From Planctomycetota bacterium (GTDB lineage Bacteria > Planctomycetota > Brocadiia > Brocadiales > Brocadiaceae): DNA of 64,000 bases. The notes under the pieces are model-generated. The model saw only the letters and a list, made by a program, of their open reading frames with translations, searched no databases and was not told the origin of the DNA. Shown one piece after another: positions 1,243 to 16,929 of this stretch (position 1 is its first letter; every line of letters begins with the position of its first letter). The translations under genes were made by a program, and so were the position numbers. The DNA lies in contig VGXV01000007.1 of the NCBI GenBank assembly GCA_016873165.1, forward strand, positions 31,245-95,244, read 5' to 3'.

Positions 1243-2934
1243 CTAGAACGTAACAGTCGTCTGTATATACATCCAGTTGGATTCAATCTCATCACCGAAT
1301 ACGTCATCAATCCAATCTTCACCCTTGAAGAAGGAATAACCAGCAAGAATACCAACATTTTGATACAGACTATAACTTACCGTTAAATCAAACTCCCATG
1401 CAAGTTCATCATCGGTATTTGAAAATTCGGCTTCTGTAGCTGAACGTGCCGAAGCAAGGTTGCCAGATGCATAATACCATCCATCATCTTCTTCGTCCAG
1501 TTCAAAATAATGAACATCAGCCTGTATCATTAATTTCTTTGTTGGGTTAACCTTTACGTTCGCCCTGTAATCGTGAATATTTCTCCAACTCACGAGATCA
1601 ATGAAACCGTAGTTACCCTGCCAGTGGTTTGTAGGGTAAAGGTTATCAAATGTCTCATGCTGCCCATCGCTAACATCATCATCGCCGGATGCGAAATCAT
1701 ATTCAACTCCGATACGAGGGGTCCATGCCACGTTTTTGAATGTATACCCTGTCCTTGCGGCCAACGCCCACGCTTTATGGCTCTGATCGCCATAATCTCC
1801 GACCTGGAAGTGAGATTCCAAGGTGTAATCTATAGCGTCAAGATTTAGCGCTTTACCATCCAACCTGAATCCTAAATCATGCACAACTACATGGTCACTG
1901 TCACCTTCTCCGGCATCATAGCCATCAGTAACTGCGCTGTTAGAATCATCATCCTGATCATTCTTCTGGATATACATAAGCTCTAAGACTGCCCTGGGGA
2001 TAAGCTTTTTGAACGTAAACATGGAGGCATAGAGATTTTCGTCTTCATTATCATCATCAGTTGCACCATCCACATATCCGTTTTCATCGATCTTTGCGCC
2101 AAATGCTTCCCAGTAATAGGTGTCAGTATCGTACATAAAACGTGCGGCATCAAAGGTTCGACCGATATTTGACCATACAAAGTTACCGATAACCCTGTGA
2201 TCACCCCAGACAATCTCCTGGCGGCCAACTCTGACGGTCAACGGCAAATCGAACAAATTCCTGATGTCAAAATATCCCTGATGAAGATCAAGACGATTAT
2301 TTGCGCTATCAGCTATAGAGTTTTCACCGTCGTTTACAAAGCCAACCGTATCGCCTTCTGTACCCCATGAACGTGCATCCTGAATTTGAATAAAAATTCT
2401 AAGGTGTTCGTTTACGTCGCCATCTGCCCAAAGACGCGATTGATTTAAGACATAATCATCATCCGCTGAAGAACCTGATAACGCGCGTCTGGTACCAAAA
2501 GATTCAAACTGAGTGGTATGGTCTGGTGTATTATAAAAACCGTTGGTGTATTCATACCTTGTTCTTATCTGAGCGCCCAATTTTACCTTTTTTGCAAATT
2601 CAGAATAAACATTTCCCGTAATATCCTGAGCCTTCAATTGTTCTGCCTGGGCAGCAGTCTGAAACTCTTCCTTCAAAAAATTAACTTCATTTCTTAACGT
2701 TTCTAATTCTCCTTTTTCCCCTTCGCTTAAAGGAGCAGAAGATACAGTTTGAGACTGTTTAACAGTTTCTATCTGCTCAGTCAAGCTTGAAACAGAAGCC
2801 CTCAGTGCATTCAGCTCCTTTTCCATATCCTCTAACGATGTCGAGTCAGCCCCATGCACGAAGGGAGTAGCCGCAAAACAGAAGACAGCAGCAGCAACGC
2901 CGCCGAGGCACGTCTTCCAAAATTTATTTCCCAT
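1243..2934 (-). CDS. Outer-membrane porin-like beta-barrel protein with N-terminal coiled coil
   Basis: 563 residues from the ATG at 2934. That start is preferred over the in-frame GTG at 2940 because a strong GGGAGG site lies five bases upstream of it and overlaps the GTG. Residues 1-28 form a signal peptide ending VHG-AD. Residues about 30-95 are a short coiled coil like the trimerising stalk of S-layer-anchored porins. The remainder is rich in alternating aromatic/acidic strands, with segments resembling the alginate-export (AlgE-like) porin family, such as RLWADG, VGRQEIVWGDHR and IGVEYDFASGDDD. It ends in TVTF, the terminal Phe recognised by the Bam machinery. The role is presumably passive diffusion across the outer membrane; the substrate cannot be deduced. 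It has its own terminator. Confidence 0.85.
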   Translation of the reverse strand: MGNKFWKTCLGGVAAAVFCFAATPFVHGADSTSLEDMEKELNALRASVSSLTEQIETVKQSQTVSSAPLSEGEKGELETLRNEVNFLKEEFQTAAQAEQLKAQDITGNVYSEFAKKVKLGAQIRTRYEYTNGFYNTPDHTTQFESFGTRRALSGSSADDDYVLNQSRLWADGDVNEHLRIFIQIQDARSWGTEGDTVGFVNDGENSIADSANNRLDLHQGYFDIRNLFDLPLTVRVGRQEIVWGDHRVIGNFVWSNIGRTFDAARFMYDTDTYYWEAFGAKIDENGYVDGATDDDNEDENLYASMFTFKKLIPRAVLELMYIQKNDQDDDSNSAVTDGYDAGEGDSDHVVVHDLGFRLDGKALNLDAIDYTLESHFQVGDYGDQSHKAWALAARTGYTFKNVAWTPRIGVEYDFASGDDDVSDGQHETFDNLYPTNHWQGNYGFIDLVSWRNIHDYRANVKVNPTKKLMIQADVHYFELDEEDDGWYYASGNLASARSATEAEFSNTDDELAWEFDLTVSYSLYQNVGILAGYSFFKGEDWIDDVFGDEIESNWMYIQTTVTF

Positions 2935-8408: not shown

Positions 8409-9989
8409 ATGTTAGTCTTAATTGCAGATGATCTTCCCGATGTATGTAATGAAATTCTACAAAATGCCGGGCTCGAAGTTTTAAAGAAAACGGGATTAAA
8501 GTCCCCGGAGTTGGAGGCTGTTATAAAAACGTGTGAAGGTGTTATTGTCAGGAGCAATACAAAACTTACTGCTTCCGTACTCGAAAAAAGCGAAAAGTTG
8601 CAGGCCGTTTGCCGTGCAGGCGTGGGTGTTGACAATATAGATGTCCCTGCGGCCACAAAAAAAGGTATTGTGGTCATGAATACTCCAGCAGGTAATATAG
8701 TCTCAACTGCCGAACATACCATCGCTATGCTTTGTTCGCTCTCTCGTTTCATTCCCCAGGCATGCGCTTCGGTAAAGGAAGGGAAATGGGAAAAAAAGAA
8801 ATTTACAGGGATGCAGCTTACAGGAAAAATTTTAGGAATTATCGGGCTGGGACGTGTAGGCAGACAAGTAGCGAAACGTGCCGCTGCTTTGGAAATGAAG
8901 GTTATCGGCTATGATCCTTTCATAACAGCAGAAATTTCATCGCAATATAATATAGCTATCGTTAAAAATCTTGATGACCTGCTGGCGCAGGCAGACTATA
9001 TCACACTTCATGTCACGCTGAACAAAGAAACCAAAAATCTTCTTGCCAGTAAAGAATTTTCCCTCATGAAAAAAGGCGTACAAATTATTAATTGCGCAAG
9101 GGGCGGTGTTATTTCGGAAAAGGATCTCTACGATGCCATTAAAAGCGGACACGTAGCTGGCGCGGCCCTTGATGTGTTTGAAGAAGAACCTCCAAAGGAC
9201 ACCAAGTTGGTGCAGTTGGAGCAGGTCATTGCCACTCCGCACCTGGGAGCTTCAACCGAAGAAGCTCAATTCGCCGTTGCAGTTGAGGCTGCGGAACAGA
9301 TGGCGGCGGCGCTTACCGGAAAAGGATACAAAAACGCTGTCAACCTTTCTCCGTATAGTCCGGAAGAATATACAAATTTAAAACCTTATCTCGTTCTTGC
9401 TGAAAAAATGGGATCCTTTTTAACGCAGCTTAACAGTGAAAGTATACAGACATTAGATATCGTATACACGGGAGAAATTTCCAATAAAAATATCCGGATC
9501 ATTACTGACAGTCTTATTGTCGGATTACTCAAACCAAGTCTGGAAGAAGGAGTAAATCTTGTTAGCGCGCCTACTTTGCTGACAGAACGAGGCATAAAGG
9601 TAAATGTCACTACGAGCAGCAGCTCTTGTGATTTCAGCAGCCTTGTTACCGCTAAAATTTCCACGGCTAACGGAGAAACCGTCATTTCAGGCGCGGTATT
9701 TGGCAAAAATGAGCCGAGGCTTGTAGATATAAATGGTTATGGCGTAGAGGCCATTCTCAACGAACATATACTTGTGCTTTTCGGCAAAGATAAACCTGGG
9801 TTCATTGGTCAAATAGGATCTCTTCTTGGCAGCAAAAACATAAATATTGCACATATGACCTTTGGCAGGAAAGAGATTGGTGGAAATACCATTAGTATTT
9901 TAAATGTTGATGCCGTGCCGCCGCAAGATTGCCTTAAAGAAATTAACCGGTTGAACCATATTGAAGGGGTATATTTAATACATCTCTAA
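8409..9989 (+). CDS. serA: D-3-phosphoglycerate dehydrogenase (long form)
   Basis: 526 residues, the usual size of the long (type I) enzyme. It oxidises 3-phosphoglycerate to 3-phosphohydroxypyruvate with NAD, the first step of serine synthesis. Visible motifs are NAD-binding GIIGLGRVGRQVA (about 144-156), INCARGGVI, the catalytic ALDVFEEEPP region and the HLGAST histidine. These are followed by the allosteric substrate-binding domain and a C-terminal ACT domain (about 450-526, starting HILVLFGKDKPGFIG) that usually binds serine. An AAAGG site precedes the ATG. It is monocistronic as far as seen, with a terminator hairpin at 10042-10082. Confidence 0.97.
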   Translation: MLVLIADDLPDVCNEILQNAGLEVLKKTGLKSPELEAVIKTCEGVIVRSNTKLTASVLEKSEKLQAVCRAGVGVDNIDVPAATKKGIVVMNTPAGNIVSTAEHTIAMLCSLSRFIPQACASVKEGKWEKKKFTGMQLTGKILGIIGLGRVGRQVAKRAAALEMKVIGYDPFITAEISSQYNIAIVKNLDDLLAQADYITLHVTLNKETKNLLASKEFSLMKKGVQIINCARGGVISEKDLYDAIKSGHVAGAALDVFEEEPPKDTKLVQLEQVIATPHLGASTEEAQFAVAVEAAEQMAAALTGKGYKNAVNLSPYSPEEYTNLKPYLVLAEKMGSFLTQLNSESIQTLDIVYTGEISNKNIRIITDSLIVGLLKPSLEEGVNLVSAPTLLTERGIKVNVTTSSSSCDFSSLVTAKISTANGETVISGAVFGKNEPRLVDINGYGVEAILNEHILVLFGKDKPGFIGQIGSLLGSKNINIAHMTFGRKEIGGNTISILNVDAVPPQDCLKEINRLNHIEGVYLIHL

Positions 9990-11925: not shown

Positions 11926-12633
11926 CTATCGCCACAAATACTTTGACCGTATAGCCTTATGTATCCTGTAGTCTAAATCAATGAGTTTTACATTGCAATT
12001 GTCATACGAATGATATTTTGTATCTTTTGCCATAAAACAGAGTTCTTTCACCATTTTGGGATTGCCTCCTGAAAATCTGTATATGTCTTTTTTGAAATCG
12101 TCCATACAATTGACGTTAATCTTAAATTCTTTGATAAAATGATCTGCCAGTTTATCAGTGGATGATTTATCAAGATTAGTCATTTCCACTTTTACAAAAT
12201 CAAACAAGACCATACGCAAATGATCGATATCTTTTTTCTTTATACCACGGCTTATTATTATCAGAGGAATTTTTTTGTCCATTAAATACAGATAGAAAGA
12301 ATAGTGTTTTGGTTTAACCAATTCTACATGATCAAAAATAACATATTCCGGCGCTATCTCATCAAGCATGGTAAAGAATGTTTTTCTCAGCATCGGAATG
12401 TTTTTGTTATTTATTTTTTTTGTATCTTTACGATAGAAAAGAATAGGGTTTATCAACGATTCCTTCAATGTTCTGCTGCTGTGAGAGTAAAGTAACTTTC
12501 CGGACTTCCTCCGGCTTACTAATTCGTGAATAACGGCGCTTTTACCCGTTCCTTCCTCTCCGTAGACAATGATATTTTTCCTACAGTCCATTGCGTTTTT
12601 TATTAACCGGAGTTCCTCTTCTCTGGTAAACAT
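11926..12633 (-). CDS. P-loop ATPase of the AAA/STAND (ORC/Cdc6-like) type, last gene of the fluoride-riboswitch operon
   Basis: 235 residues from the ATG at 12633, preceded by GGGGA at suitable spacing; an upstream GTG at 12657 overlaps the previous gene and is less likely. The Walker A motif is GEEGTGKS (25-32). The Walker B-like motif is YVIFDHV, where the usual acidic partner after Asp is His. The sensor-2-like SGGNPKMVKELC near the C-terminus resembles ORC1/Cdc6 and AAA_16 NTPases. No membrane segment or effector domain is seen. It begins 16 bases after the stop of the Cys-rich gene and is therefore probably the last cistron of the operon starting at the 16.1 kb promoter. The specific function is unknown; a switch-like ATPase acting with the dynamin-like GTPase is an inference. 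Confidence 0.8.
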   Translation of the reverse strand: MFTREEELRLIKNAMDCRKNIIVYGEEGTGKSAVIHELVSRRKSGKLLYSHSSRTLKESLINPILFYRKDTKKINNKNIPMLRKTFFTMLDEIAPEYVIFDHVELVKPKHYSFYLYLMDKKIPLIIISRGIKKKDIDHLRMVLFDFVKVEMTNLDKSSTDKLADHFIKEFKINVNCMDDFKKDIYRFSGGNPKMVKELCFMAKDTKYHSYDNCNVKLIDLDYRIHKAIRSKYLWR

Positions 12634-12649
12634 GTCATTTATTCCCCAT

Positions 12650-13312
12650 TTATACACCGTTTTTACCCGCTATTTTTTCGATTGCCAGCAACCACGATTT
12701 TTTCTCAGCCTTTGTCTGTTCCCACCGGGAAGACGGATTCATCTTGCGAATAAAGCCTTCGGCGTCTGATTTAATCCGTGCGATCTGAGTAATTTGTGTA
12801 TCAAATAAAAATTCCAGTAGCAATTCATCATCACTATAATCCATTAGTCTGATAAAGTGAGGCATGCAAGCGCCACAGCCGGATACATATTTTGGTTTAA
12901 TATCATCATCTTCCAAAATGTTCGTCAGTTCCTTAAGATAACCTGCTTCTTTTTGCTTTAGCTCGTAACACAAAGGACATTTCATGACATTCTCTGCAGA
13001 TAAAATATTTAAATTATGTTTGTGTTTGACGGAGTTTAACACTGCTATCAATTTTACCAGCAAAACAATGCATACATTTGCTGTGCCGTAATGAGAGCTA
13101 ATTCTTTGGAATTGCCAAAAATGGTAATTACAAAAACCTCCCGCGTTTACAAGGTGTATCCTTTGTTCCGAATCTCTATATGTCTCGCCGCTTTTCCCTG
13201 CCCATCGGCACAAACTGTCAAATTCATCCTGATATAACATTGCGCAGACAGGACATCTTTCCGAAGAAAGGGCGCTGATAATTCGCGAATATATTTTGTT
13301 TGCTCTATCCAT
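12650..13312 (-). CDS. Cys-rich protein with paired CPxC / CxxH modules (DUF6062-like)
   Basis: 220 residues. Metal-binding residues are arranged in two modules: C20 and C23 (CPVC) with C61 and H64 (FCNYH), and C112 and C115 (CPLC) with C146, C149 and H152 (CGACMPH). This pattern resembles DUF6062-type proteins, which are uncharacterised and found mostly in anaerobes; the assignment is from memory of the motif, not a search. It could bind zinc or an iron-sulfur cluster. The start overlaps the end of the frameshift-dependent HEAT gene by eight bases (ATGGATAG), a strong sign of translational coupling. It has no signal peptide or membrane segment, so it is probably cytoplasmic. Confidence 0.75.
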   Translation of the reverse strand: MDRANKIYSRIISALSSERCPVCAMLYQDEFDSLCRWAGKSGETYRDSEQRIHLVNAGGFCNYHFWQFQRISSHYGTANVCIVLLVKLIAVLNSVKHKHNLNILSAENVMKCPLCYELKQKEAGYLKELTNILEDDDIKPKYVSGCGACMPHFIRLMDYSDDELLLEFLFDTQITQIARIKSDAEGFIRKMNPSSRWEQTKAEKKSWLLAIEKIAGKNGV

Positions 13313-13690
13313 TTATTTTGATTCTTAATTCTATTAAGTCCTTCGCCCTTCTCTTAACAACGCCCATATCTGACTCCATACAACCCATAATAAACTCTTT
13401 TGCCTCGGAAACTCCGATTTCATTCAGAGTTTCGAGAATCGCAGTCTTAAGAAAGACACTGTCTTTTTTTTAAAGAGTGCAATAAGAGGTTCTACCGCTT
13501 TTTCACTTTTTAGCCTGCCGAGGATATTTATTGCCCGCAGAACCGTTTCCGGTTCCGTATGCCTTAGCGCATTGAGCAATTTTTCCTCGTAATCCATGTT
13601 TTCATATTTCACTATATCCGCATTACAGAAAGGGCATATTTTCTCAGCCTCATTTATTTCATTCCAGCATTTCGGGCAATAGAATGTCAT
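13305..13690 (-). CDS. Zinc-ribbon/HEAT-repeat protein that needs a -1 frameshift at 13463-13469
   Basis: The zero frame gives 88 residues: a zinc ribbon (C5, C8, C19, C22) and the start of a HEAT-like repeat (EKLLNALRHTEPETVLRAI, then RLKSEKAVEPLIALF). It then reads out through an unrelated tail and stops at 13424. A shift of -1 at the A8 run continues the HEAT repeat naturally (DSVFLKTAILETLNEIG, then EAKEFIMGCME) to a TAG at 13305-13307, for 128 residues. The restored end overlaps the next gene's start by eight bases, as expected in this tightly packed operon, so I regard the longer product as the functional one. The start ATG overlaps the stop of the preceding zinc-ribbon gene (ATGA). An indel or sequencing error in the homopolymer is the alternative. 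Confidence 0.75.
13463..13469 (-). promoter_or_regulatory. Candidate programmed -1 frameshift heptamer A_AAA_AAG
   Basis: In the zero frame the codons are AAA AAA AAG, so the heptamer A_AAA_AAG, the same as in Escherichia coli dnaX, is in the correct phase. A -1 slip continues with GAC and restores the HEAT frame. A 10-bp hairpin with one bulge (13427-13436 with 13404-13414) lies 26 bases downstream, further than the usual 5-9. RNA polymerase slippage on A8 would give the same product. Confidence 0.6.
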
Positions 13691-13950
13691 GTTGTTTTTC
13701 TTTGAAGCCTCTGTAATGCCTGGATATATCTTCGCCCAATAACTAAAGCAGCATCATGCTTATATCTCTTTGAACACCATGAACATTCAATATAATTATC
13801 CGCTGCCCTCAGATTTGGTAAAATGCCGCTTTCTTCTGTACGCATCCCGAGGAGCGGAGATTGTTTTATGCTTTTAAAACTACTAAAAAAAACCTTACAT
13901 TCTTTGTCATTGCCACATACCGGACAGATAAAAAAATTGTTTGCCTCCAT
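13687..13950 (-). CDS. Small zinc-ribbon protein downstream of the second fluoride riboswitch
   Basis: 87 residues with two CxxC knuckles (C9/C12 and C56/C59) separated by a 43-residue insert, and a basic C-terminus. No known family is recognised. An AGGAGG site (13958-13963) lies seven bases before the ATG, and upstream AACTCCT of the riboswitch can pair with it (see the element at 13958-14048). The stop overlaps the next start (ATGA), so this gene leads a translationally coupled series with the HEAT and Cys-rich genes. Confidence 0.75.
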   Translation of the reverse strand: MEANNFFICPVCGNDKECKVFFSSFKSIKQSPLLGMRTEESGILPNLRAADNYIECSWCSKRYKHDAALVIGRRYIQALQRLQRKTT

Positions 13951-13957
13951 ATTAAAA

Positions 13958-14048
13958 CCTCCTTCATTAAATACTATAACAAACTAAACCACTATATATC
14001 TAATAGGAGTTATCAGCTCACGATGGCAATAAGGCGAACTCCATCGCC
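13958..14048 (-). promoter_or_regulatory. Fluoride (crcB-motif) riboswitch A with Shine-Dalgarno-sequestering platform
   Basis: The aptamer is 14048 to 14004. Stem P1 is GGCG/CGCC around the loop AUGGAGUU. A second, bulged stem follows (GCCA-UCG-UGAGC), then GCUGAU and AACUCC. AACUCC pairs with the loop GGAGUU as the conserved pseudoknot and is followed by UA. This is the same architecture as known fluoride aptamers. AACUCCU can instead pair with the AGGAGGUU of the downstream ribosome binding site (13956-13963). Fluoride binding should therefore expose that site and switch translation on. The aptamer starts 26 nt after the dynamin-like stop codon with no convincing promoter between, so it is probably intercistronic. 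The gene controlled is not a known fluoride gene. Confidence 0.88.
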
Positions 14049-14074
14049 TCTTCCTTCAGAACCACAGCTTAATC

Positions 14075-15877
14075 CTACATCATTACCATATTTATTTGCT
14101 CCTGTTTTACGTCAATCAGATTAATGGCATTCCAAATATTTGTCAGTGTCTCTTTGTGATCTTCCAGTTTCTTAGTCTTGTCTGCCAATAACGCCAGCTC
14201 AATCCGTACAGACTCGTCTCCCGCCTTTCGTCTCTCCCTACCCTTTTGAATAGCCTGTTCTATTTGCTCTGTAAGATCGCTTCCAAGGTCTTTCAATTGT
14301 TTCGCATAGTGGTTAATGGTCTTGCAAATCCTTCCTGCAAGGTCTGAGCGTATTCTGCCGCAGTTTCGGCTTACATCAGAAGACACCCTTTCCATCATCT
14401 CGTGAAAAACCATCTTCCTGCTCAGGGATTTCGGCAGGAACGTACGCAGAATGGACTTCACTTCTTCTTCGGTAGGCGCCGTATACTCCTGCACCATATA
14501 ATAAAAACTATTGTCTTTCGTCAGCTCCACGGCAAATTCCGCCTGATCCATAGTTACCTCAAAGAGCACCTCAGCAGCCGCTTTAAACTCCTGTATGATA
14601 TCGTTGGAACGTTTTGTAAAACGGTTAAAAGCCTCCTGAATAGTATTTGAAATCGCCAGCTCGGAATCTTTTCTGAATACATCGAATCCCCTGACGATCT
14701 CCTCTTTGATAGCCTTTTGCATCTCATCCCGAAGAACTGTCGGGCTTAGCCCGAAATTTTTCTCATAGAAATCCGTAAGACATTGTTTTATTCTCGGGGT
14801 TTCTTTTTCTTCCAAAGCCTTCAGCATATTCTCCACTTTCAGACACAACTTGTCGGATTCTCCCTTGAGCAGATACGTAATATCATCTCTGTCCTGTTTC
14901 AGGTTTGCAACCAATTTATGAAAGGTGTTTAGTTTCTCCTCTAATTCTTCACTGGAAGCCTCCAGGGTTCGCTTCTCAATAGCTATCTGAGATAATTTCC
15001 GGGAGATAAACCGTTGTGTCCTGGATATTGCTGTATTCAGAACAACCTTCCCTTTTTCTGAAGAAAGAAAACTCTCCAGCTCATCTGCAAGTTCCAAAAG
15101 ACCGCTCTGTGAAAACTGAACATCGTTATTCATTATTTTTGCCTTCAGCGCTTCTCTTGCAGATATAGGCCAGATTTTATGCACGGTAAATCCCATCTCC
15201 TCCAATACCTGTTTATTAAACTGAGAAATTTCCTTAATCTCTTCTGCCGTCAGATTATCAATTTTATTCAGCACGAAGAATATCTTCTGGGTGGAATCTT
15301 TGATGGTATCAAGCAGTTCCTTTTCTGCCTGTGAAATAGGAACATCGGCGCTCATCAGAAATAATGCGGCATCGAGGTGGTCTAAAAATTCATACGTCGT
15401 TTCCGTATTATGCAGAAAGGTTGACCCTACACCCGGAGTATCGACCAGCAACATGCCCTTTTCAAGAGAAGGAGACGGATATTCAATGAACGCACATCGT
15501 ACCCCGCGAATATTCCGCGGATTCTCCTTCTCGGTAACATAGCAGGAAAGTTCTTCCACACTGATTTTCTTTTGACTGCCATCTTCCATAAAGATAGTGC
15601 ATCTGATTTCTTTGCCAAATTTCAGGATCGTCACGATAGAGGTGAGCGGCACTACCGATGACGGGAGTATCTCTTTGCCAATGAGGCTGTTGATAAGCGT
15701 CGTTTTCCCCCTTTTAAACTGACCCAAAATCACCAAATTGAAGCTGTTCGTTATCAATTGCTCTCTGACCATAGCAAGTTGGTTGTTTCCAGCCCCCGCA
15801 TCGTCTTTTGATAAGGTCTCTGTTTTTTCAATAACACTCAATATTTCTTTTTTATGTTCCACGAATTTTTCTAACAT
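14075..15877 (-). CDS. Dynamin-like GTPase, first gene of the fluoride-riboswitch operon
   Basis: 600 residues. The GTPase domain shows all G motifs: GQFKRGKT (52-59), the switch-I Thr in PLTS (about 77-80), DTPG (146-149) and NKID (204-207). The P-loop Phe/Lys pattern and the long helical C-terminal part (about 290-600, strongly charged and coiled-coil-like) are those of bacterial dynamin-like proteins. These bind and remodel membranes and are linked to membrane repair and stress tolerance. No transmembrane segment is obvious; a paddle-like hydrophobic patch may lie near 470-500. GGAGGA precedes the ATG. Transcription must pass a fluoride aptamer and two terminators. Most bacterial dynamin-like proteins occur as adjacent pairs; here there is only one. 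Confidence 0.92.
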   Translation of the reverse strand: MLEKFVEHKKEILSVIEKTETLSKDDAGAGNNQLAMVREQLITNSFNLVILGQFKRGKTTLINSLIGKEILPSSVVPLTSIVTILKFGKEIRCTIFMEDGSQKKISVEELSCYVTEKENPRNIRGVRCAFIEYPSPSLEKGMLLVDTPGVGSTFLHNTETTYEFLDHLDAALFLMSADVPISQAEKELLDTIKDSTQKIFFVLNKIDNLTAEEIKEISQFNKQVLEEMGFTVHKIWPISAREALKAKIMNNDVQFSQSGLLELADELESFLSSEKGKVVLNTAISRTQRFISRKLSQIAIEKRTLEASSEELEEKLNTFHKLVANLKQDRDDITYLLKGESDKLCLKVENMLKALEEKETPRIKQCLTDFYEKNFGLSPTVLRDEMQKAIKEEIVRGFDVFRKDSELAISNTIQEAFNRFTKRSNDIIQEFKAAAEVLFEVTMDQAEFAVELTKDNSFYYMVQEYTAPTEEEVKSILRTFLPKSLSRKMVFHEMMERVSSDVSRNCGRIRSDLAGRICKTINHYAKQLKDLGSDLTEQIEQAIQKGRERRKAGDESVRIELALLADKTKKLEDHKETLTNIWNAINLIDVKQEQINMVMM

Positions 15878-15940
15878 GAAACTTCAAATCCTCCATAAAA
15901 TAAATGGATATGCTCATCTCCCTGATGGAAAAACATAACA

Positions 15941-15982
15941 GAAAAACCCCTGCCAACACTATTTGTTTGACAGGGGTTTTTC
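15941..15982 (-). terminator. Second intrinsic terminator (T2) in the riboswitch B leader
   Basis: The arms 15982-15967 and 15956-15941 (GAAAAACCCCTGTCAA with TTGGCAGGGGTTTTTC) form a 16-bp stem with one G-U, ending in five T on the minus strand. Its upstream arm can instead pair with the downstream arm of terminator T1, which would destroy T2. Confidence 0.85.
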
Positions 15983-15984
15983 AA

Positions 15985-16025
15985 AATAAAAAAACTCCTG
16001 CCAAACGAAATCTTTGACAGGAGTT
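15985..16025 (-). terminator. First intrinsic terminator (T1), expression platform of riboswitch B
   Basis: AACTCCTGTCAAA (16025-16013) pairs with TTTGGCAGGAGTT (16005-15993), followed by a run of seven T. The AACTCC at its 5' end is the same segment that forms the aptamer pseudoknot. Aptamer and terminator are therefore mutually exclusive, the standard fluoride-ON arrangement. Confidence 0.93.
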
Positions 16026-16063
16026 ATTAGCCACAATAGCAGCGATTAAGCGAACTCCATCGC
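16018..16063 (-). promoter_or_regulatory. Fluoride (crcB-motif) riboswitch B aptamer
   Basis: Reading the minus strand from 16063: P1 GCG/CGC closes the loop AUGGAGUU. The linker UUAAUC is followed by a fully paired second stem GCUGC-UAUU-GUGGC (two wobbles), then UAAU and AACUCC. AACUCC pairs with the loop GGAGUU, and the next base is U. This matches known aptamers element by element (for example the loop AUGGAGUU and GCUAAUGACUCC of a Bacillus crcB RNA, recalled from the literature). It overlaps terminator T1 and sits 37 nt downstream of a consensus-like promoter. The gene controlled is a dynamin-like GTPase, not a fluoride exporter. Confidence 0.93.
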
Positions 16064-16099
16064 ATACACTTTTATTTCAGCAATCGAGAATCGAGGGTA

Positions 16100-16128
16100 A
16101 TGATACTCACTCTTTCATCTGTTGTCAA
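16100..16128 (-). promoter_or_regulatory. Sigma-70-type promoter of the fluoride-riboswitch operon
   Basis: On the minus strand TTGACA (16128-16123), 17 bases, then TATCAT (16105-16100). The predicted start near 16092 leaves about 30 nt before the aptamer. Confidence 0.8.
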
Positions 16129-16289: not shown

Positions 16290-16646
16290 TCAAGTAATAT
16301 TGCCTAATTCTGGTATTACAGATTGAACTATTTCGCCCGATGAGACGTGCTTATGAGAATTGAAGTTTAACCGTGGTGTATGGTCAGCATTGTCGTATCT
16401 GAATATTAGCTTTCCATCTATTTGTTGAAAATGAAAAGAATAAGTAAGTTTTTCGATCTTATATCTGACGTCGAGATATTCTGTAAAAAATAATTTTGAA
16501 TCGTCAATAAATGTTATGACACCTTTTGTTACCCCAATTTTTTCAGTCCTGCTGTCAATGTGTAAATCTGTATCAATTATTAAATTGGTTTTGGAATATT
16601 CCTCTATACCCTTTACAAGGTTGGCGAAATATTCAGTGAGCAACAT
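16290..16646 (-). CDS. TumE-family (DUF6516) putative toxin
   Basis: 118 residues. The pattern LFFTEYLDVRYKIEKLTYSFH, then LIFRYDNADHTPRLNF, HKHV and a C-terminal PEL is that of the DUF6516/TumE family (motif cores quoted). Members are predicted or shown to be toxins of type II toxin-antitoxin modules. The reading frame overlaps the end of the upstream small helical gene by 14 bases, the usual tight coupling of such pairs. The molecular activity is not known to me. It stands between smc and the fluoride-riboswitch operon on the same strand, with separate promoters likely. Confidence 0.75.
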   Translation of the reverse strand: MLLTEYFANLVKGIEEYSKTNLIIDTDLHIDSRTEKIGVTKGVITFIDDSKLFFTEYLDVRYKIEKLTYSFHFQQIDGKLIFRYDNADHTPRLNFNSHKHVSSGEIVQSVIPELGNIT

Positions 16647-16929
16647 ACTCTATTTCTTTGAGTTTTCTCAGGTCTTCCATTACCTTTTCCCTTATCTTTA
16701 ATTCGCCTGCCCATTCTATATATTCCCGGTCGCCTTTTTTCAGGTCTTCGGCGGAAAATTCCTTCTGAAATACTTCTGATGATACATCATACTCAGTTTC
16801 AAATTTTTCAATTTGCATGTTTGTTTTACTCAAGCCGATCTCGAGTCTTTTGATTTCAGCAGAAATTGCCGCCCGAATAATGTCAACAACTCCATCCTCT
16901 TTGTCAGATTGAATTTGTAATTTTATCAT
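16633..16929 (-). CDS. Small helical protein, putative antitoxin (TumA-like) partner of TumE
   Basis: 98 residues, almost entirely charged helix (RAAISAEIKRLEIGLSKTN, then FETEYDVSS and EYIEWAGELKIREKVMED). Small proteins of this kind regularly precede TumE/DUF6516 genes. An AGGAGG-like site (AAGGAGGTTTTTGC) lies upstream of the ATG. The gene overlaps the toxin start by 14 bases. It has no DNA-binding motif that I can see, so autoregulation is uncertain. Confidence 0.65.
   Translation of the reverse strand: MIKLQIQSDKEDGVVDIIRAAISAEIKRLEIGLSKTNMQIEKFETEYDVSSEVFQKEFSAEDLKKGDREYIEWAGELKIREKVMEDLRKLKEIEYVAH

Follow-up and report, generated by a model that had tools for sequence, protein, structure and literature searches.

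What is a dynamin-like GTPase doing behind a fluoride riboswitch, and why does the switch occur twice in one operon that holds neither a crcB nor a CLC-F gene? The locus that raises this question lies in a stretch of 64,000 nucleotides, hereafter the window, from a Planctomycetota bacterium of the Brocadiaceae (assembly GCA_016873165.1, contig VGXV01000007.1, positions 31,245 to 95,244 of the forward strand), whose genome amounts to 4.05 Mb in 191 contigs, with a completeness of 100. Between positions 16128 and 11926, on the minus strand, a promoter, a first aptamer (B), two terminators (T1 and T2), a dynamin-like gene, a second aptamer (A) and a module of zinc-protein and ATPase genes follow one another. 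The reading that we consider probable is that of a two-aptamer fluoride operon, where fluoride would switch on a mitofusin-like dynamin together with the zinc-protein/ATPase module, in what is likely a response that protects membranes. Its parts do not all have the same strength: judged from sequence, the link of the operon to fluoride is strong, the double gate (transcription, then translation) is a prediction, and the membrane role of the dynamin is a proposal, as is the exporter role discussed below for transporters of related operons.

The earlier note on this DNA had recognised two aptamers of the fluoride class, and had proposed a search with the Rfam family RF01734 at both sites. Aptamer A, the second gate (13997..14057, minus strand), scored 38.0 bits, above the gathering cut-off of 34, and is the sole over-cut-off Rfam match in the whole window. 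Aptamer B, the first gate (16011..16073, minus strand), stayed below this cut-off with 30.0 bits, at an E value of 2.3e-5 in a relaxed-threshold search of 6 kb with all 4227 Rfam families. Both elements are borne out as members of the class, only A by the cut-off. When the whole genome was searched with RF01734, aptamer B was found at E 3.7e-6 and the next (third) match at 0.72; A and B are the only credible matches in the genome. Read directly, the pseudoknot strands GGAGUU and AACUCC are complementary in both aptamers, and these are pairs that the structure line of RF01734 leaves unscored. The orthologous position in three relatives (G001, G002 and G010; G stands for genomes, L for loci, f for families, g for genera, and f1 is, by inference, the Brocadiaceae) gave similar scores of 34.2, 32.9 and 29.7 bits, so that the low score of aptamer B reflects its lineage rather than noise. 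Chance resemblance is ruled out by the scores, the genome-wide E values and the presence of the same element in relatives. The low score would also fit an aptamer B that has drifted and lost fluoride binding, the operon then being set by the leak of T1 and T2. The score does not stem from the CUAAU core as such, which L046:2721 (53.2 bits) and L140 (56.6 bits) share with aptamer B. We hold a loss of binding to be improbable, as the divergent form is kept at this place in the window, G001, G002 and G010, with its overlap with T1 intact.

The fluoride link is also supported by the distribution of aptamer and dynamin in the family. RF01734 was surveyed in 59 genomes, including the window's own, and 27 contained a match with an E value of at most 0.01. 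Within f1, an aptamer was present in 23 of 33 genomes (again with our own), 13 of which have two or three, spread over two contigs in G019 and G021. An orthologue of the dynamin (at least 72% identity over the main matched piece) was found in exactly these 23 genomes, and in none of the 10 aptamer-less ones (G014, G016, G018, G025 and G027-G032). Nine of the latter give a weak match (E 2e-16 to 3e-22), which we take to be other GTPases, and G027 gives none. Three genera (g6, g10 and g11) each hold both states, i.e. aptamer plus dynamin, or neither. If the genomes were independent, such a pattern would arise by chance once in 92,561,040 (33 choose 10), a figure that serves as a guide only. The arrangement is equally constant: in 22 of 22 assessable genomes, G006 being left out because its dynamin is cut by the contig start, the aptamer lies upstream of the dynamin gene, directly or across one small gene, often the 66-amino-acid c3. 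Thus the survey of dynamin-like genes for an upstream RF01734 element, which the earlier note had suggested, was positive throughout the assessable Brocadiaceae, and its idea of a fluoride response is supported by the joint presence in 23, and the joint lack in 10, of 33 genomes. As for c3 itself, this conserved small protein (62-111 amino acids as called) stands behind the first aptamer in nine loci (L046, L049, L050, L051, L058, L060, L063, L065 and L066), and the one tested had no Pfam match.

To place this linkage in a wider frame, RF01734 was searched in 294 planctomycete genomes, which yielded 34 hits outside the Brocadiales. The next gene was read at 22 of the 34 loci, two of which had no open reading frame (ORF); the 20 ORFs tested comprised 10 Na+/H+ exchangers, 7 CrcB, 2 CLC and one without Pfam match. 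Operons with crcB, CLC-F or Na+/H+ exchanger genes in other planctomycetes therefore use the same riboswitch class, whereas the Brocadiaceae have no CrcB match, the window's genome has no CLC match, and the dynamin leads the operon. The two kinds of target meet in the distant planctomycete G261 (L161, contig 63, 598-3217, plus strand), where an aptamer of 52.5 bits, a Na+/H+ exchanger, a UspA-like protein (named from reading its sequence) and a dynamin-like GTPase of 38% identity, cut by the contig end, lie on one strand. When these 294 genomes were searched with the dynamin itself, three matches at 1e-30 turned up outside the Brocadiales, in G108, G191 and G261.

The dynamin gene (14075..15877, minus strand) encodes a 600-amino-acid GTPase of the BDLP/mitofusin kind (PF00350 Dynamin_N, 6.6e-27). 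Its closest solved sequence is BDLP 2j68 (4.3e-26), its structure model matches the fold of BDLP 2j69, and it has the long helical stalk of BDLP. As the model has a predicted local distance difference test score (pLDDT) of 68.6, with the GTPase core partly below 50, the overall class alone is taken from it. The GQFKRGKTT, DTPG and NKxD columns are invariant in 41 dynamin sequences, and the P-loop, DTPG and NKxD of the window protein are intact. Another role that was considered is that of a phage-defence or general envelope-stress GTPase, like LeoA, for which fluoride would be a mere cue; the PADLOC models of LeoA (3.3e-14) and LeoBC (1.1e-8) do match. This seems very improbable to us, since BDLP fits better in sequence and in fold, the partners are zinc-ribbon, FNT (formate/nitrite transporter), P-II and antiporter genes under RNA control of the fluoride class, and the other four proteins of the window operon have no PADLOC match. 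What sets the window dynamin apart from BDLP (2j68/2j69), the C. jejuni DLP pair, IniA, LeoA and the mitofusins is its control by a fluoride riboswitch, to which operons of sister species add an adjacent stalk-only paralogue without GTPase domain.

How would fluoride act on this operon? The first leader starts at a predicted sigma-70-like promoter (TTGACA-17-TATCAT, 16100..16128, minus strand), already placed there by the earlier note, in which 11 of 12 positions agree with the consensus; taken together, such promoter-like sites show no enrichment over shuffled DNA (17, against 14.7). Behind aptamer B, the two terminators that had been read by eye were both recovered. T1 (15988..16025, minus strand) was detected by a terminator scan, with 13 pairs followed by a T run, and takes the pseudoknot strand AACUCC of the aptamer as its 5′ arm. 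A terminator that starts with the pseudoknot strand is the classical on-switch layout. T2 (15942..15981, minus strand) is absent from the list of the simple scan and evident in the fold and in a pattern search; its 5′ arm is able to pair with the 3′ arm of T1. The fold of leader B as a whole has a z-score of −6.6. Compared with the RF01734 riboswitches that act through a transcription terminator, leader B shares the aptamer match and the pseudoknot strand placed in a terminator arm; the tandem terminators, the second aptamer inside the operon with its predicted translational platform, and a dynamin as first gene are what differs.

The tandem arrangement is common in the family. T1 was found by pattern behind 37 of 41 f1 aptamers, and T1 together with T2 behind 29 with a strict and 31 with a relaxed pattern; L058:2305 and L043:7261, judged by eye, are tandem too, beyond the 31. 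Across these 31 leaders, the columns of the pairing between the 3′ arm of T1 and the 5′ arm of T2 (2:3), the only pairing for which we rely on column counts, contain 386 standard pairs out of 434, one column being an A-C mismatch in 31 of 31. Mean duplex energies were −19.3 for T1, −16.0 for 2:3, −23.8 for T2 and −11.8 for the mirror pairing of T1-5′ with T2-3′, and 2:3 was stronger than the mirror in 23 of 31 leaders. Duplexes within a leader also surpass those between leaders, as none of 10000 permutations reaches the observed value, relatedness being left uncontrolled in this comparison. The topology (1:2, 2:3, 3:4) is that of the four arms of a trp-type attenuator; here both 1:2 and 3:4 have U-tracts, the switch is a riboswitch, and the relay is a hypothetical one.

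Whether T2 takes part in such a relay, or is a fail-safe terminator only, whose leak limits induction, appears to us an evenly balanced question. On the side of the fail-safe, and against a relay, stands the stability of T2, which exceeds that of the 2:3 hairpin in 30 of 31 leaders. When nine of the 31 leaders were folded with the pseudoknot strand blocked, T2 prevailed in eight, and T2 as a proven relay was dropped for this reason. On the other side, the window leader, alone among the nine, retains the 2:3 helix in this bound-state fold, the 2:3 duplex exceeds both its permutations and its mirror, and a strong terminator that fluoride does not weaken would shut the operon off.

The two aptamers are predicted to differ in their output, B acting by transcription termination and A by translation. 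No terminator was found in leader A. In its minimum-energy fold, the strand AACUCCU pairs with the Shine-Dalgarno sequence AGGAGG (13963-13958), forming a predicted translational platform (13958..14011, minus strand). The predicted mean probability that the Shine-Dalgarno is unpaired rises from 0.21 in the free leader to 0.86 when the pseudoknot strand is occupied. Two other aptamers of different sequence go in the same direction (0.23 to 0.82 in G012, 0.27 to 0.46 in G002), which makes three of the six leaders examined for a hidden Shine-Dalgarno. In the remaining three, L065:6725 and L060:10360 have no Shine-Dalgarno match, and the match of L063:9682 lies inside T1 (0.01 to 0.24).

Aptamer A also seems to bear traces of its origin. 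It occupies the position of aptamer 2 of G002, and its 5′ flank is closer to that aptamer (32 of 40 identical positions) than to aptamer 3 (20 of 40); on its 3′ side the order is reversed, with 66 of 90 for aptamer 3 and 57 of 90 for aptamer 2. Because the two sides fit two different copies, a deletion between aptamer copies probably removed a stalk-only dynamin and the gene c6, fusing two aptamers into the chimeric aptamer A.

The window operon is a trimmed form of a larger operon of sister species, which comprises FNTs, a P-II protein, a Na+/H+ exchanger and the stalk-only dynamin. The stalk-only protein, about 275 amino acids long, matches dynamin residues ~300-580; it is found at L044:10031-10858 and also in L043, L050, L054, L055 and L064 (206-315 amino acids as called), with its own fluoride aptamer upstream, and no GTPase domain was found in the one tested. 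The sister operons also hold a zinc ribbon, a zinc-ribbon/HEAT protein, a P-II protein (6.6e-31) and tandem FNTs (PF01226, 1.9e-70 and 4.5e-68 in the two tested). The G012 operon further includes a Na+/H+ exchanger fused to PepSY, homologues of which follow aptamers in G033 and G057. Operon FNTs occur in at least 8 of the 23 aptamer-bearing f1 genomes (G001, G007, G012, G013, G019, G020, G021 and G023), a lower bound, as contigs end early; the leader of G021 lies beyond the contig end.

Are these transporters ordinary formate/nitrite channels? When 43 FNT rows, sampled from all that were found, were placed in a midpoint-rooted tree, the operon FNTs formed two clades of their own, FNT-a with 4 rows (100/99) and FNT-b with 8 (100/100), and each of the two nests with members of a different tandem FNT pair. 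E91, N104 and N186 are present in 8 of 8 FNT-b rows (L060:12461-13387, L054:2793-3686, L043:3441-4331, L055:12727-13650, L064:11042-11962, L058:576-1508, L061:2461-3387 and L049:4533-6290), and the other 35 rows show none of them at the columns reached. They replace V, mostly I, and A of the sister proteins (V83, I96 and A178 in FocA), while K164 and H217 remain conserved. Of the four FNT-a rows, one retains the threonine that corresponds to T91 of FocA, the other three having M, N or A. That the operon FNTs have changed substrate is at most a fair guess from these residues. One may then suppose that the true defence of the family is fluoride or hydrogen fluoride (HF) export, or pH control, by FNTs and Na+/H+ exchangers, the window operon being a degenerate leftover with its dynamin. 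The 8 genomes with operon FNTs in two separate clades, the exchanger of G012 with its homologues behind aptamers in G033 and G057, the chimera-like aptamer A and a frame change in the HEAT gene (below) would agree with it. We nevertheless find it unlikely: the dynamin is present in all 23 genomes and operon FNTs in 8, and the window dynamin has kept its full length and its GTPase motifs, and shares 85-87% identity with the dynamins of its genus.

An exporter might also be encoded at another locus of the genome. None of the 33 f1 genomes yielded a CrcB match (PF02537), under a search that was positive in 10 of 14 controls. For CLC (PF00654), the window's genome was without match, and 32 of 59 genomes had one. 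Three sampled CLCs of f1 are without GNNLI and GREGT, residues that we take to mark CLC-F, and both aptamer-linked CLCs of other planctomycetes (L150 and L156) have them. Only one FNT match was found in the window's genome, and it falls into the ordinary FNT clade; the Na+/H+ exchanger match is in pieces, on a contig without aptamer hit. A known exporter elsewhere in the genome was rejected on these grounds, which do not extend to exporters of an unknown kind, and the statement of the earlier note that the operon has no known fluoride exporter holds for CrcB and CLC genome-wide.

From these elements we infer the following course of events. Without fluoride, the AACUCC strand of aptamer B would join T1 and transcription would stop, with T2 as a backup. 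Fluoride would hold AACUCC in the pseudoknot and leave T1 incomplete; once released, the 3′ arm of T1 may bind the 5′ arm of T2 and so destabilise this second terminator. Read-through would then yield the dynamin. Aptamer A would bind fluoride too, exposing the Shine-Dalgarno of the zinc-ribbon gene; since aptamer A sits downstream of gate B, the second module would need fluoride twice, unless there is an internal promoter. In the last and weakest step, HF entry and acidification would strain membranes, on which the dynamin would assemble so as to tether, reseal or remodel them. For the anammox bacteria of the Brocadiaceae at large, in which no CrcB was found, a defence of their own can be imagined: a dedicated FNT-type channel pair would export fluoride or HF and thus represent a third class of bacterial exporters, the exchanger and P-II would tune it, the dynamin and its GTPase-less partner would seal inner membranes, and some lineages, the window's among them, would live on the dynamin module alone. 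We offer this as a tentative and rather doubtful extension.

Several observations weigh against the reading of a fluoride-gated, membrane-protecting operon. The surveyed genomes are related, and the counts are not independent. The dynamin of G024 consists of two pieces that lie in different frames, and several others are cut by contig ends. Orthologues of about 62% identity in family f4 (G038 L129, G041 L127 and G058 L126) have no aptamer in their available flanks, so the tie of this dynamin to fluoride is not universal. Outside the Brocadiales, where 31 of the 34 loci were read up to 6 kb downstream, several of them ending at contig ends, a dynamin follows the aptamer in one only; the G108 dynamin has no aptamer nearby, and that of G191 is cut by the contig start. 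As to the switches, we have the score of aptamer B below the gathering cut-off, the eight bound-state folds in which T2 prevails, and the fold of leader A as a whole (z −1.33), which 19 of 200 shuffles equal.

The module behind aptamer A lies entirely on the minus strand. Its first gene (13687..13950) encodes an 87-amino-acid zinc-ribbon protein with Cys pairs, without Pfam match over cut-off, whose homologues in sister genomes are also behind fluoride aptamers. The zinc-ribbon/HEAT ORF that follows (13424..13690; HEAT_2, 2.5e-6) has 88 amino acids, against at least 126 in relatives: a frame change occurs at an A run, and similarity resumes in another frame, to about 13306. This frame change may be real or an assembly error. 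Then come a Cys-rich DUF6062 protein of 220 amino acids (12650..13312; PF19538, 1.4e-14), with no useful match among solved structures, and a P-loop ATPase of the ATPase_2 kind (11926..12633; PF01637, 1.7e-10), 235 amino acids from the ATG at 12633, with an alternative GTG at 12657. The earlier observation of two aptamers, a promoter and two terminators in one minus-strand unit is confirmed as a whole, and Pfam agrees with its gene names (dynamin, HEAT, DUF6062, ATPase), the HEAT ORF alone being shorter than its relatives. Its interpretation stands in part: the fluoride response is supported, and is refined to two predicted switch modes, a probably chimeric aptamer A and a trimmed operon.

Three neighbouring observations were made. 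Directly upstream of the promoter (16290-16929, minus strand) lie a TumE toxin-like gene (PF20126, 1.2e-15) and a TumA-like partner (weak, 0.0019). In L048 (G006), an aptamer with tandem terminators (1327-1388, plus strand) precedes a homologue of window gene 8409-9989, which, named from reading its sequence, resembles phosphoglycerate dehydrogenase. Finally, L067 (G033, family f2) combines a fluoride aptamer, a Na+/H+ exchanger of the G012 type, a zinc-ribbon/HEAT homologue (58.6% identity) and a protein that reads as transporter-like.

The genes for which fluoride riboswitches have been described are chiefly those of exporters, antiporters and enzymes sensitive to fluoride (PMC11139923, PMC7266159), exporters ranking first among the controlled genes and Na+/H+ antiporters next (PMC11139923). 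Our search of the open literature returned no paper joining a fluoride riboswitch with a dynamin or with anammox, nor a formate nitrite transporter with fluoride, although both may be mentioned elsewhere, and nothing, by title, on a riboswitch with tandem terminators of this design. If the reading is true, bacterial dynamins gain a concrete inducer, and the operon FNTs become a new exporter candidate. An operon that stacks two aptamers, one predicted to act on transcription and the other on translation, would be a naturally occurring double gate. In our view, the system may also be relevant to anammox reactors fed with fluoride-rich wastewater. If a GTPase that remodels membranes is the core target throughout the Brocadiaceae, where CrcB was not found, fluoride biology would gain a membrane arm.

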